Below are positions 3,075 to 32,587 of a DNA stretch of 34,840 nucleotides, one piece after another. The notes under the pieces were generated by a model. The model saw only the letters and a program-made list of their open reading frames with translations. It was not told where the DNA came from and ran no database searches. The stretch covers positions 1 to 34,840 of the forward strand of contig JAPCJO010000015.1 of the NCBI GenBank assembly GCA_027886905.1. The letters are read 5' to 3'. Made by a program: the position numbers and the translations under genes. Position 1 is the first letter of the stretch, and each line of letters starts with the position of its first letter. This DNA is from Nitrososphaerota archaeon (GTDB lineage: Archaea; Thermoproteota; Nitrososphaeria; Nitrososphaerales; Gagatemarchaeaceae).

Positions 3075-3152
3075 CTACTTTCCCCGCCCGCAACTGCGAG
3101 CATTTTAGGAGGCGACCCCCTTCCCTTAAAGCCGCCCCTGACCTGGTTCTCT

Positions 3153-19963: not shown

Positions 19964-20767
19964 ATGTCCAGACCTATCACCACACCAGACGTCCCAGTCA
20001 TCGTCGCCGCTTCCATCCTGAGCGTCTACGAGGCCCCTATGCTCCCAATCGTGAAGGTGGGCGCTTCGCCGACGCACGTGAAGGAGGGGGTCACGCTCTT
20101 TCAGGCCATCGGGAGCCAGCCGATCATCTCCCTGTTGAGGGAGACCAAGCCAAAGGACTACTACAAGATCCTCTGGAGCTCGTGCACAGCCACGAGCATC
20201 TGGATAGGCGCCCTCGGGTACGACGACAGCCTTGACGAGCTGCTAAGGGTCTTCGTGCTGACAGGCTTCGGCGATGCGAAGGTCGACTCCCCCCCGTCCC
20301 CGCCTGCGCTGATCACTCTGAACGAGGTCGTCGCGCTCTATCGCGAGGGAAAGCTGAGGTGCGAACTGGGCGTGAAGGAGGTGGCGTCGCCTGCGGTGGT
20401 GGTGGACTCTGACATGCCGCTGATGGAGGCGATGAACCTGATGTGCGAGGTGAGGATCAGGAGGCTCTTCCTCCGCGGAAAGGCGGGCGAGTTCGTCTCC
20501 GACAGGAACATCCTCGCCTTCCTCTTCTCACCCAAGGGCTTGAAGATCGCGAGGGACGCCCCGGATGACTGGACCGACCTGAGGCTCTCGGACATCGGGT
20601 CCATGTTCGCCCGCGTCGTCTCGTCGAACGACAGCGTCGAACAAGTCGGGAGGATGGTGGAGCCAGGCCGCGACGTCTTCGTGCTCTCGGACCACGAGTC
20701 CGTGATCTCCAGGTGGGACCTGGTCATCAAGCCGTGGAAGGCCGAGAAGCTCAGGCTTTCGATGTGA
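19964..20767 (+). CDS. CBS-domain-like protein, probable sensor
   Basis: 267 residues. The sequence has the repeating rhythm of CBS modules: an N-terminal L-F-Q-A-I-G-S-Q-P-I half, then V-K-E-V-A-S-P-A-V-V-V-D-S-D-M-P-L-M-E-A-M-N-L-M (about 139-162) followed by R-R-L-F-L-R-G. The C-terminus repeats a weaker V-S-S-N-D-S-V-E-Q-V-G-R-M-V pattern. CBS pairs commonly bind adenine nucleotides and regulate partner proteins. No catalytic domain is attached. An upstream TATA-like CTATCTTA at 19917-19924 would give a leader of about 20 nt. The partner is not evident. Assignment rests on pattern only. Confidence 0.6.
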   Translation: MSRPITTPDVPVIVAASILSVYEAPMLPIVKVGASPTHVKEGVTLFQAIGSQPIISLLRETKPKDYYKILWSSCTATSIWIGALGYDDSLDELLRVFVLTGFGDAKVDSPPSPPALITLNEVVALYREGKLRCELGVKEVASPAVVVDSDMPLMEAMNLMCEVRIRRLFLRGKAGEFVSDRNILAFLFSPKGLKIARDAPDDWTDLRLSDIGSMFARVVSSNDSVEQVGRMVEPGRDVFVLSDHESVISRWDLVIKPWKAEKLRLSM

Positions 20768-20822
20768 GCTGGCGGCGGGAGCCGCCGAGGGCGGCTCTCA
20801 TCGATGAGAAAGACCTGCCAAG

Positions 20823-20829
20823 GTTTTAA
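20823..20829 (+). promoter_or_regulatory. TATA-like box for the ferritin-VIT1 leader
   Basis: GTTTTAA lies about 25 nt before the GTG at 20850, so the transcript probably begins about 97 nt upstream of the ferritin-VIT1 start codon. This is unusual in a window of mostly leaderless genes. Confidence 0.4.
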
Positions 20830-20849
20830 GGGGCGCTCCCGTCCAACGG

Positions 20850-20930
20850 GTGCGTGTGCCGCCGTCGCAGCATAGCCCGGGGCCTCTCCTGCGTGAGGAG
20901 GGCGCCGACGGGCGCCGCGACCACAGCTAG
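20850..20930 (+). ncRNA. Candidate structured leader RNA or 26-codon leaderless micro-ORF
   Basis: The leader predicted from the TATA box at 20823-20829 can fold as a three-way junction. GTCGC (20865-20869) pairs with GCGAC (20917-20921) around two adjoining hairpins: CTCCT/AGGAG with loop GCGTG, and GGCGCC/GGCGCC with loop GACG. The helices abut without unpaired bases. The same stretch is an open frame of 26 codons from GTG at 20850 to TAG at 20930. Either reading could regulate the iron gene that starts 17 nt later. High GC content makes chance pairing possible, so confidence is low. Confidence 0.3.
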
Positions 20931-20946
20931 GGATTGGTAGCCGGGT

Positions 20947-21837
20947 TTGTCCAAGGAAGAGCTCTCACAGACCGCCGCGCAGGAGGCGAGGGACGAGATG
21001 ACGGACTACACGACCTACAAGCGGCTCGCGAGCTCCGAGAAGGCCCAGACCAACAAGGACATGTTCGAGGAGCTGAGCGCGATGGAGCACAACCACTACC
21101 AACTCTGGATGAGATACTGCCCGCCGGGCACGAAGGAGATAGGCCCGAAGAGGGCGACGGTCTCCCTGGTGCTGTTCCTGCGCAGGCTTTTCGGGGCGTC
21201 CTTCGCGATAAAGTTCCTGGAGCGCCGAGAAAAGTCCACCGTCGCGAAGTACGAGGCGCTGAAGGGCTCCGTCCCCGCCGAGGACCAGGCCGAGTTCCAG
21301 TCGATGATAGAAGACGAGAAGGGGCACGAGACTGCCTTCGCGGACGTCGTCGCCGGCAGCTACGTCAAGTACATCTCGTTCATCGTCCTGGGCCTGGCTG
21401 ACGCGCTCGTGGAGATCGCCGGGATCCACGCGGGCTCCCTCGGGATATACAACTCCACCGAGCTGACCGGCCTGGCGGGGATAGTCGCCGGGGCCGCCGC
21501 CTCGCTCGCCATGGCCTCGGCCGCCTTCGCGCAAGCCAAGCAGGGGTTCGAGGGCTCGCCCGGGCTCGCGGCTGGCTACACGGGCGGCTCCTACTTCGTC
21601 GCGGCCGTCGCGCTGGCGCTCCCCTACTTCCTGACCAAGACGATGCTCGTCGCGATCACGTCCTCGGTGGTCGTCGGCCTCGGGATCATCGCCTTCGTGA
21701 CCTGGTACAACTCCATCATCGTGGGAAGCCGCTTCTTCAGGGAGTTCTCGGTGCTCGCGGGCGTGATGTTGGGCGCGACGTTCGCGCTCTACGTCTTCGG
21801 AAGCGTGATACGGGCCGCCTTCGGGATAACGATCTAA
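20947..21837 (+). CDS. Ferritin-like/VIT1 fusion, MbfA-like iron or manganese transporter
   Basis: 296 residues from a TTG. The N-terminal half (1-130) is a ferritin/rubrerythrin-like helical domain with candidate metal ligands Glu13, Glu17, Glu47 and His50, and later Glu103, Glu122, Glu124 and His127. The C-terminal half (about 137-296) is a membrane VIT1/CCC1 domain with the G-L-A-D-A-L-V-E-I-A-G-I segment and about five helices. This arrangement matches membrane-bound ferritin MbfA of bacteria, which exports iron and protects against peroxide. The archaeal protein likely moves Fe2+ or Mn2+ out of the cytosol after sensing or oxidising it. The unusual leader upstream suggests metal-dependent control, which is inference. 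Confidence 0.85.
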   Translation: MSKEELSQTAAQEARDEMTDYTTYKRLASSEKAQTNKDMFEELSAMEHNHYQLWMRYCPPGTKEIGPKRATVSLVLFLRRLFGASFAIKFLERREKSTVAKYEALKGSVPAEDQAEFQSMIEDEKGHETAFADVVAGSYVKYISFIVLGLADALVEIAGIHAGSLGIYNSTELTGLAGIVAGAAASLAMASAAFAQAKQGFEGSPGLAAGYTGGSYFVAAVALALPYFLTKTMLVAITSSVVVGLGIIAFVTWYNSIIVGSRFFREFSVLAGVMLGATFALYVFGSVIRAAFGITI

Positions 21838-29769: not shown

Positions 29770-31010
29770 GCTTTGGACCCGATTCAGGGGCACGCGCGCC
29801 TTTTTCTGATGGTGGTGGCTAAATACGAAATCCGGATTGTCCAATGTGAAAGAGGCATCAGTCAAAAGGCTCGTCTACAAGTTCAGACTCTACCCGACGC
29901 CGACCCAAGAGATAACACTGAATAACACTCTCGAGACCTGCAGAAGGCTATACAACTCGATGCTCGCCCACAGGATTGAGAGTCAAATCGGCTTCTACGA
30001 GCAGAAGCGCACTTTGACAGCTGTTCGCAAAGAGAACAAGTTCCTCAAAGCCATCCAATCCCACGTGCTCCAAGACGTGGTGCTGAGGCTAGACAAGGCA
30101 TTTGGCGCGTTCTTCGCGGGGGTCAGCCAGTACCCTCACTTCAAAAGGCGGGGAAGGTACAACTCGTTCACATTCGACTACACCGGGTTTAGGCTGAGCG
30201 GGAATCGGGTCCGGCTAAGCATGGTAGGCGCCGTGAAAATCGTGGTCCACCGATCGTTGCTTGGGCGTCTCAAGAGGTTGACCGTAATCAAAGACATCGA
30301 CCAGTGGTTTGCAGCAATCTTGGTCGTGGGAGAACCCGAAATCGAGCCATCCGCGGAGGGTAAGGTAGGCGTGGATGTAGGCGTGTCAAATGTCGTGGCT
30401 CTTAGCGATGGGACGATTGTCAAGAACCCGCGCTTCTTGGACAGCTCGATAGAGCGGATTAAGACTCTTCAACTGCGCCTCGCGCGGAAGAAGACCGGTT
30501 CGAGAAACAGAGAGAAGATGAAATTCTCTCTGGCGAAGGCCTGGAGAAAGGTGAGGAGGCAGAGGGACGACTTCGCCCATAAGCTCTCGCATCAGTTGGC
30601 GGAGAAGAACAACATCATCGCCTTCGAAAACCTAAGGATTCAGAACATTGTCAAGAAACACAGCATCGCGTCGGCAATAATGGATGCCTCCTGGGGAAAG
30701 TTGCGCCTACTAACTGCCTACAAGGCAGAACGGCGCGGTGGGCGAGTAATTCTCGTCAACCCAAGCGGGACATCGCAGAAATGCTCGGAATGCGGGAAAA
30801 CCGTCCAGAAAGATCTCTCAGTTAGGGTGCATTCGTGCCCTGACTGTGGCTTGGTCCTGGACCGGGATGTCAATGCTGCAAGGAATGTCATGCAGGCGGG
30901 CTTGGAACGAGCCCGTGTGGAGGCCGAACCTCTGCTTATCCAGCGAAGGAGGATAAGCAAGTTTGGCTGATGAAGCAAGAAGCCCGCAACCTCAAGCGTG
31001 GGTTGTTCAC
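29770..31010 (+). mobile_element. Solo TnpB element (IS605/IS1341 type), approximate ends
   Basis: Contains tnpB without a tnpA transposase. The right end is estimated at 31010, where a subterminal hairpin (GCAACC 30986-30991 pairing with GGTTGT 31001-31006) is followed by TTCAC, a common right end of this family. The left end is not visible as a motif; it must lie between the DUF1028 promoter (29752) and tnpB. GC content is lower than in the neighbours. Transposition would need a TnpA supplied elsewhere. Confidence 0.6.
29846..30970 (+). CDS. tnpB: RNA-guided nuclease TnpB
   Basis: 374 residues from the GTG at 29846, which fits the TATA-like CTAAATAC at 29819-29826; a TTG at 29837 is an alternative. 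An N-terminal helix-turn-helix-like OrfB domain (Y-K-F-R-L-Y-P-T-P-T-Q) is followed by the RuvC domain: Asp177 in V-G-V-D-V-G-V, Glu261 in I-A-F-E-N-L, Asp341 in L-D-R-D-V-N-A-A. The zinc finger C-x-x-C (313, 316) and C-x-x-C (331, 334) lies between the last two. All catalytic residues are present, so it is probably active: it cuts DNA guided by an omega RNA from its own 3' end. Confidence 0.92.
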   Translation: MKEASVKRLVYKFRLYPTPTQEITLNNTLETCRRLYNSMLAHRIESQIGFYEQKRTLTAVRKENKFLKAIQSHVLQDVVLRLDKAFGAFFAGVSQYPHFKRRGRYNSFTFDYTGFRLSGNRVRLSMVGAVKIVVHRSLLGRLKRLTVIKDIDQWFAAILVVGEPEIEPSAEGKVGVDVGVSNVVALSDGTIVKNPRFLDSSIERIKTLQLRLARKKTGSRNREKMKFSLAKAWRKVRRQRDDFAHKLSHQLAEKNNIIAFENLRIQNIVKKHSIASAIMDASWGKLRLLTAYKAERRGGRVILVNPSGTSQKCSECGKTVQKDLSVRVHSCPDCGLVLDRDVNAARNVMQAGLERARVEAEPLLIQRRRISKFG

Positions 31011-31030
31011 TAAGGATAAAAACTGCAGTT
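30860..31030 (+). ncRNA. Putative omega RNA of the TnpB element, with guide
   Basis: In this family the guide RNA overlaps the end of tnpB and runs through the right end, and the bases just outside (here from 31011) serve as guide. The hairpin at 30986-31006 and the TTCAC end support this position. The 5' end is not determined. The guide would begin TAAGGATAAAAACTG, which contains the TATA box of tRNA-Val. Confidence 0.35.
31014..31023 (+). promoter_or_regulatory. TATA-like box for tRNA-Val
   Basis: GGATAAAAAC lies about 30 nt before G1 of tRNA-Val at 31050. It starts only 4 bases beyond the right end of the TnpB element. Confidence 0.5.
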
Positions 31031-31049
31031 TGCCGGCTGGCCAAACAGT

Positions 31050-31146
31050 GGGCCGATCGTCTAGCTTGGTTTGGACATCGCTCTGACACGGCGAATACGC
31101 GAAAGCGTCGTCAGGGTCCCCGGTTCAAATCCGGGTCGGCCCACCA
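31050..31146 (+). tRNA. tRNA-Val(GAC) with a variable-loop intron and encoded CCA
   Basis: The acceptor is GGGCCGA/TCGGCCC, A73 at 31143 and CCA encoded at 31144-31146, followed by a TTTT run. The D arm is GTCT/GGAC, the anticodon stem TCGCT/GGCGA, the loop CTGACAC with anticodon GAC, and the T arm CCCGG-TTCAAAT-CCGGG. A 19-nt intron at 31096-31114 lies between positions 44 and 45. Its bulge-helix-bulge uses GGCG pairing with CGTC, bulges AAT and AGG, and an inner ACGC-GAAA-GCGT hairpin. Splicing gives the normal variable loop AGGTC. No intron sits at 37/38. Confidence 0.88.
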
Positions 31147-31169
31147 CTTTTCATCATCCGTCAGACTAC

Positions 31170-31176
31170 GGTTAAA
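31170..31176 (+). promoter_or_regulatory. TATA-like box for the purD-like gene
   Basis: GTTAAAG is centred about 29 nt before the TTG at 31202, so the transcript is leaderless and the long upstream open frame through tRNA-Val is not coding. Confidence 0.45.
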
Positions 31177-31201
31177 GCGCAGGGACGCCGGAGCCCTCCC
31201 G

Positions 31202-32587
31202 TTGGACAAGGTAGGCATCCTCATAGTCTCAAAGTGCCTGAGCTCCGCGGCGATAATCGACACCTTCGCGAGGAGCGAGAGGTACGCCCCCGAGTTCTAC
31301 ATCGCAGAAAGGCAAGTCAACCCGCTCAACTTCAAGAGGGCGAAGGTCCACCGGGTTGTCCCCGACCTGAACGTCGCGGACGTCACGAAGTTCGCCAGCA
31401 GGCATGAGAGGCAGATTGACTTCGGGCTGACGGACACCGAGGACTTCGTCACCGCCGGGGGCAGGGACATCGTGGAGAGGGAGACGGGGATCCCGATGCT
31501 CTGCGTGACCAAGGAGTTCGCGGTCGAGGCGAGCAAGGCCGACCAGCGGCTGCTCTTCGAGAGGATCTGCCCGAAGGCCAACCCGCGCTACAAGGTGTTC
31601 GACCCCTCGAAGTACCCGAGCGAGGGGGCGGCCGTCGCGGACCTCAGGAGCTTCTCCAAGGAACTGGACGCCGGGTTCGCGATAAAGCCCGACGCGCCCG
31701 CGAGGGGCGCGGGGGTCGGGGTCTGGGGGAAGGACTTTTCGACCGAGGAGGAGGCCGTCGCGTTCTTCCTCAACGTCTACTCGAAAGGGAGGGTGGTCGT
31801 CGAGGAGCGCATCGAGGGGGAGGAGTCGAGCTTCCACGCCTTCAGCGACGGGCGCCACTTCGTCGCAGCCCCGCTCACGAGGGACTACAAGCGCGCCCTC
31901 GACGGGGACAAGGGAAAGCTCACCGGGGGGATGGGGAGCTACAGGGGCCCCAAGGAGGGGCTCCCGTTCCTGCCGCCCTCCGAGTGGGAGAGGGTCGTGC
32001 GCATGGAGCGGGACGCCTTCGAGAAGTGGAAGGGGAGGGGCTCGAACCCCGCCCTCCGCGGGATAGTGCTCTACGACGCCCTGATGCACACGCGCGGGGG
32101 GTTCAAGATACTCGAGAGGAACAGCAGGGGAGGAAACACGGAGCAGATCTGCCTCCTGACGACGATGCTCGACGATTACGTCGACGTCTGCTACAGGATG
32201 GTCGACGGGAGCCTCAAGGGGATCCGGTTCTCGAACAAGGCCTCGGTCGTGACCTGCGCGGTGCCGCTCAACTACGGCACCTCCGCCAACCAGGCGCCCG
32301 GGGAGGCGGTCGACCTAGACCGGGCCTACGCCCTCGAGAAGCAGCGCGACGGGGACCTCCGCGTCTTCCCCATGGACCTCAGGCTCGACGAGACAGGCCT
32401 CACCGTGATGGGCTCGTCGCGGTCGGTCGCTGTCGCGGGCATCGCGGCGTCCCTCAAAGAGGCGAACGCGATCTCGGACGAGGGCGTGAGCGAGCTTGGC
32501 GACAAGTTCCGCCACAGGACGGACGTGGGGAGCGAGACCGACATCGCCAGGAGCAAGGAGCACCTCCGCAGGGTCAGGAAGGCCTGA
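31202..32587 (+). CDS. purD: Phosphoribosylamine-glycine ligase (PurD-like ATP-grasp)
   Basis: 461 residues from a TTG set by the TATA box at 31170-31176. The enzyme joins glycine to phosphoribosylamine in purine synthesis. An N-terminal Rossmann-like part is followed by the ATP-grasp domain: G-F-A-I-K-P-D-A-P-A-R-G-A-G-V-G-V-W with the ATP lysine, V-V-E-E-R-I-E-G-E-E, and the PurD hallmark D-G-D-K-G-K-L-T-G-G-M-G-S-Y. Metal ligands appear in L-E-R-N-S-R-G-G-N-T-E-Q. It is divergent from bacterial PurD at the N-terminus and is longer. PurP is a weaker alternative because it lacks the T-G-G-M-G signature. Confidence 0.82.
   Translation: MDKVGILIVSKCLSSAAIIDTFARSERYAPEFYIAERQVNPLNFKRAKVHRVVPDLNVADVTKFASRHERQIDFGLTDTEDFVTAGGRDIVERETGIPMLCVTKEFAVEASKADQRLLFERICPKANPRYKVFDPSKYPSEGAAVADLRSFSKELDAGFAIKPDAPARGAGVGVWGKDFSTEEEAVAFFLNVYSKGRVVVEERIEGEESSFHAFSDGRHFVAAPLTRDYKRALDGDKGKLTGGMGSYRGPKEGLPFLPPSEWERVVRMERDAFEKWKGRGSNPALRGIVLYDALMHTRGGFKILERNSRGGNTEQICLLTTMLDDYVDVCYRMVDGSLKGIRFSNKASVVTCAVPLNYGTSANQAPGEAVDLDRAYALEKQRDGDLRVFPMDLRLDETGLTVMGSSRSVAVAGIAASLKEANAISDEGVSELGDKFRHRTDVGSETDIARSKEHLRRVRKA

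Follow-up and report, generated by a model that had tools for sequence, protein, structure and literature searches.

What does the DNA between a distant TATA box and the TTG start codon of a predicted iron gene do in an archaeon in which leaderless genes are common: Does it give rise to an RNA regulator, does it open a small reading frame, or does it simply separate promoter and gene? We asked this for one window, by which we mean the whole stretch of 34,840 nt of DNA that was analysed (contig C37 of a 1.6-Mb genome that is 76.6% complete and whose nearest relatives with a name are MAGs recorded as Thaumarchaeota, archaeon or Nitrososphaerales). A first-pass annotation had proposed here a possible metal-responsive structured leader that also encoded a short frame. 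The reading that we favor, at a probability of about 0.62, is that of an ordinary, clade-restricted 5′ untranslated leader in front of an MbfA/VIT1-like gene, with control exerted at the level of the promoter. The features on which the argument draws are collected in Table 1.

Table 1. Coordinates of features in and around the leader (positions in the window; T1 denotes the initial T of the TATA box; L032 and L056 are loci of orthologues).
Feature	Position	Strand	Remarks
Perfect inverted repeat GAGCCGCC-GAG-GGCGGCTC	20779-20797		Follows the upstream gene
Conserved promoter block (upstream element, BRE, TATA box)	20794-20840	+	35/47 identical to L032, ungapped
Perfect 14-nt palindrome TCTCATCGATGAGA	20796-20809		Candidate operator, 15-28 nt ahead of the TATA box
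TATA box TTTTAAGG	20824-20831	+	Shared with L032; L056 has a related box
Predicted transcription start	20850-20859	+	From promoter spacing; 10/14 identical to L032 at T1+26 to T1+39
Predicted 5′ leader, ~88-97 nt	20850-20946	+	Fold z −0.06 to −1.42; core not conserved
Micro-ORF a	20850-20930	+	GTG start, 26 codons, TAG at 20928-20930
Micro-ORF b	20854-20940	+	GTG start, 28 codons, TAG at 20938-20940; in the main-gene frame, stops 6 nt before the TTG
MbfA-like gene	20947-21837	+	TTG start; ferritin-like (rubrerythrin) N-terminus, VIT1-like membrane C-terminus

The iron role that had been ascribed to the gene was supported by its homologues and by a structure model. Taken alone, the window protein scored under the Pfam cut-offs for both Rubrerythrin (20 bits, cut-off 22.8) and VIT1 (14.9 bits, cut-off 28.1). 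Among 17 aligned homologues, 16 matched VIT1 and 14 matched Rubrerythrin, and the ferritin-like E..H motifs (E47, H50, E95, E124, and H127) were invariant in the homologue alignment. The predicted structure of the protein (mean pLDDT 80.3) had the VIT1 iron transporter entries 6iu4 and 6iu3 as its closest structures (E = 2.2e-3, probability 1.00, TM score 0.63 by target length). Together, the homologue matches, the model, and the MbfA layout make “iron gene” a fair label, and the product is probably an MbfA/VIT1-like iron exporter, as predicted from sequence and model. In the sections of PMC7762939 that we draw on, the membrane-bound ferritin MbfA shares this combination of a ferritin-like N-terminus and a VIT1-like membrane C-terminus, and it is under Irr control, whereas the gene studied here is archaeal and its regulator only putative.

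That leaderless starts prevail in this DNA, as the first-pass annotation had put it, agrees with the spacing of promoters. Using first-ATG starts in place of earlier rough TATA-spacing histograms, which had been uninformative, we found that TATA-like hexamers peak 25 to 39 nt before the first ATG, with 32 in this interval vs ~7 in each 15 nt further upstream (rough calls for 243 genes). Similarly, a TATA-like box was located 23 to 40 nt before the start codon, i.e., at leaderless spacing, in 33 of 39 non-redundant homologues of the iron gene (65 sequences, window included, minus identical starts). This comparison covered the homologues with a locus, setting aside those listed without one, and included loci L059 to L064, most of which were dropped as duplicates. 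In the window, the sole TATA-like box upstream of the TTG lies 123 nt away from it. Among the homologues with a TTCAAATA box, the distance from the first T to the leaderless start was 32 to 35 nt, a spacing that would place the transcription start of the window gene near 20850 to 20859 and would give a leader of 88 to 97 nt, which makes the ~97 nt proposed earlier plausible. A leader of ~88 to 97 nt is probably present in the real mRNA. Positions 20823 to 20849, which had been counted with the structured element, comprise the TATA box and the DNA between box and start, and fall outside the predicted RNA.

We sought orthologues in 61 relatives, in the genus (8 genomes), in the family (46 genomes), in GTDB contigs (25 loci), and in viral contigs, the last of which held none. 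The nearest orthologue (L003/L032; 84% in the best stretch) has the same neighbours and the same TATA box at 107 nt from its start, and the next one (L002/L056; 79%) has a related box ~42 nt away and a leader of only ~12 to 16 nt. Among the loci read from relatives, genus, family, and GTDB contigs, only one other long leader was found, and a search with the leader DNA in 61 genomes, its own included, returned no match besides itself. The predicted leader is probably restricted to a small clade. An apparent frameshift near codon 26 of the nearest orthologue (L032, ~3076 to 3082) coincides with an ambiguous assembly base (X in the translation), and we therefore do not take it as a sign of a broken gene.

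Two observations concern the surroundings of the gene. A gene at 19964 to 20767, without a match in Pfam (E 0.001) or NCBIfam, lies between a cupin-like gene (recognized by eye) and the iron gene; it has a counterpart at 2067 to 2795 of L032 but none in L056, in which the cupin-like gene is directly followed by the iron gene. The sole tRNA that we found is a tRNA-Val (GAC) of 97 nt at 31050 to 31146, probably with an intron and far from the leader, which lies on the same strand as, and inside, a rough ORF call at 30998 to 32587 whose true start is probably downstream.

A comparison of the two long-leader orthologues revealed that the conserved part is the promoter block. From T1−30 to T1+16, 35 of 47 positions were identical, vs 27 in the best of 300 shuffles, and identity continued at T1+26 to T1+39, where the transcription start is predicted. 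Past T1+39, only 7 of 35 and then 11 of 32 positions were identical. The leader core is not conserved: Its best 30-nt match to L032 had 15 identities, as good as that of 220 of 500 shuffles, and the score of the global leader alignment was reached by 142 of 1000 shuffles.

Within the promoter block, the upstream element is a candidate site for a regulator. The sequence of its perfect palindrome is partly kept in L032, as is, to a partial degree, the dyad symmetry. Allowing for up to two mismatches, the palindrome occurred at 15 places in the genome, itself included, vs 1 for the reversed control; many of the 14 other places look by eye like coding DNA. The string CAAGGTTTTAAGG occurs once in this genome, once in the genus genome G007, and not at all in the six other genus genomes, and when we searched more widely for the pattern of the upstream element, we recovered it and the orthologue without mismatch, with three more places at 3 mismatches. 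The inverted repeat that follows the upstream gene has no conserved counterpart in L032, which shares 7 of 30 positions from T1−60 to T1−31. Since MbfA genes elsewhere are under transcriptional control by Irr, as stated in the relevant parts of PMC7762939, the promoter is the most economical site for iron control. In our preferred reading, transcription would begin in the predicted start region, driven by the TATA box at 20824, and selection would act on the promoter DNA, namely on the upstream element, the BRE and TATA box, and the start region. An iron response would most likely come about via a putative DNA-binding regulator at the conserved element (~20794 to 20823), and the RNA downstream would be a passive, GC-rich spacer whose folding may simply follow from its composition.

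Folding of the leader bears directly on this last point, and we found that it is no better than chance when tested against dinucleotide shuffles. The span 20823 to 20946 folds at −61.2 kcal/mol (z = −0.82; 41 of 200 shuffles equally stable). The 93-nt leader from T1+30 is mildly stable alone (z = −1.42; 48 of 500 shuffles as good), and together with 30 nt of the gene it gave z = −0.06 (222 of 500 shuffles as stable); the orthologue leader (L003) yielded z = +0.79 and +1.24. The minimum-energy fold of the window leader consists of hairpins and one long imperfect helix (−48.2 kcal/mol), with an alternative closed by GUCGC/GCGAC being ~4 to 5 kcal/mol costlier (−43.0 or −44.1 kcal/mol). The compact three-way junction that had been drawn for the leader thus differs from the best fold, and forcing three arms, in a drawing of our own rather than the exact original one, gave only −20.2 kcal/mol. 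For the tree distance between the folds of the two orthologues, 376 of 500 shuffles did equally well or better. We used pairwise comparisons, as the short-leader orthologue was misplaced in a three-sequence MAFFT alignment. On one such alignment (A4), the consensus energy was −6.7 kcal/mol, vs −51.8 and −25.8 kcal/mol for the single leaders with 30 nt of gene. The best fold of the window leader had 57 countable cells on A4, 78.9% of them paired, a percentage reached by 19 of 500 shuffles; however, the window itself supplies 33 of the 57 cells, so that the orthologue forms 12 of 24. Four pairs of this fold were changed on both sides, and 98 of 500 shuffles reach four. The alternative fold showed one double change on the two-leader alignment, which 248 of 500 shuffles reach. 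The search for compensatory changes that the first-pass annotation had called for thus compared two sequences, of which the orthologue leader is unalignable and folds differently; as the long leader occurs in two orthologues only, the missing covariation counts as weak evidence.

These data say little in favor of the original proposal of a metal-responsive riboswitch, or of any other structured RNA regulator. An iron-linked gene, a foldable leader, and the four double-sided changes on one alignment would all suit such an element, but neither stability nor similarity in sequence or fold rises above that of shuffles, the leader is nearly absent in the 79% orthologue, and the accessibility of the start region (0.35) equals that of shuffled leaders (0.344). 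An Rfam scan at the gathering score returned no match in the leader, and at a permissive threshold it returned two at chance level only, in line with the earlier remark that no known riboswitch was recognizable. We consider a structured regulator very unlikely. The conserved promoter could alternatively serve a separate small RNA gene between promoter and main gene, an idea that we regard as exceedingly improbable given that the stretch is not conserved in sequence between the orthologues, matches no Rfam family or tRNA, and has no T-rich end before the main gene; no run of T in the leader exceeds 3 nt, and hence an obvious U-tract terminator is lacking there. It is also conceivable that the cell makes no long leader at all, with an unseen proximal promoter or processing setting the 5′ end near 20947. 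Most homologues indeed look leaderless, and the transcription start in the window is predicted from spacing, but no AT-rich box is found 22 to 40 nt upstream of 20947, i.e., none is placed for a start near that position, and the single box farther away is the conserved one, which makes this course of events improbable.

A different alternative arises from the frames within the leader. The 26-codon frame noticed in the first pass exists exactly as described, running from the GTG at 20850 to a stop that ends 16 nt before the TTG, and the GTG codons at 20850, 20854, and 20856 all lie within the predicted transcription start region. In L003/L032, a GTG at T1+26 opens a frame of 24 codons whose TAG, like that of micro-ORF b, stands 6 nt before its TTG, and at T1+30 a start codon occurs in both, namely the GTG of the window and, in L032, an ATG that opens 20 codons. 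Hence, the transcript might begin at a GTG or ATG, a frame of 20 to 28 codons might be translated in leaderless fashion up to its stop, and ribosomes might then reinitiate at the main TTG. If true, ribosomes would in this way reach a start codon whose Shine-Dalgarno (SD) sequence is weak, and translation of the main gene would be coupled to the leader. Such an ORF, in the frame of the main gene, is present in both long-leader orthologues; it begins where the transcript is predicted to begin and stops 6 nt short of the main start codon. Closed frames of this length from the start region were rare, occurring in 1.6% of 5000 shuffles for the window and in 1.0% for L003, although the choice for the window was post hoc, its frame having been picked beforehand in the first pass; frames of at least 20 codons occurred in 7.2% and 5.3%. 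Several possible starts per leader also make coincidence easier. Upstream of the TTG, pairing to the anti-SD is weak to moderate (−6.0 kcal/mol in the window, −4.6 kcal/mol in the orthologue), yet −6 kcal/mol is reached by 54% of rough operon-internal genes and 29% of control stretches, so that −6.0 does not amount to a clearly absent SD. In the portions of the literature at hand, S. solfataricus extracts did not translate SD-less leaders (PMC7531240), and for H. volcanii, 16 of 97 very long leaders were suggested to carry uORFs (PMC4983044). Against this reading, the peptides of window and orthologue bear no resemblance to each other, and the two open frames have codon scores (0.044 and −0.082, vs 0.242 ± 0.118 in true coding windows, i.e., 1.7 and 2.8 SD below) that are not coding-like. 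Among 34 rough gene calls with only a far box in a 487-kb genome sample, 3, this gene included, had a leader-spanning frame where 1.14 were expected, and the 33 others displayed no trend to such frames. One far-TATA gene call, around 11470 of L081, has a frame spanning 91% of its leader and may be a missed small gene. On balance, we regard translation of a leaderless uORF as unlikely, if less so than the other alternatives. Rather less probable again is a more specific version, in which an ancestral leaderless start codon would have been kept at the 5′ end, detached from its gene, and would open a leaderless uORF that is independent of sequence and stops 6 nt ahead of the weak TTG, such that exporter expression would need both leaderless initiation and reinitiation.

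Both the untranslated leader that we favor and the uORF have counterparts in known systems. Archaeal mRNAs that have a leader but lack a clear SD are known, and how they are translated is an open question (PMC7531240, in the sections consulted). According to the excerpts of PMC7531240 and PMC4983044 used here, the leadered mRNAs of the largely leaderless S. solfataricus and H. volcanii are, like the present one, TATA-driven, with leaders of tens of nucleotides and no clear strong SD; the leader here, by comparison, is predicted from sequence. The H. volcanii uORFs, as presented in the pertinent part of PMC4983044, resemble the present frames in being of 15 to 31 residues within an archaeal leader, whereas the present leader is shorter than the 150- to 250-nt class and belongs to another phylum. 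In bacteria, leaderless small ORFs and 5′-terminal AUG regulators act on downstream genes (Beck and Janssen; Canestrari et al.; PMC9031893). As far as these sources describe them, such short ORFs likewise have a start codon at or near the 5′ end, predicted in our case, and a small frame that ends before the main gene; unlike them, the present frame is archaeal and predicted, starts with GTG in the window, has no run of cysteines, and encodes a peptide that is not conserved.

Of the readings that remain, the uORF holds the most interest, and any follow-up should center on the promoter element and the leaderless micro-frame. If the uORF were translated, this locus would become a test case for how archaea translate SD-less leadered mRNAs, the question posed in the cited parts of PMC7531240. 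If the plain reading of an untranslated leader is true, the iron gene would add another leadered mRNA to those of an archaeon whose genes are mostly leaderless, the search for a metal riboswitch would be spared, and the promoter element would be the better lead toward iron control.
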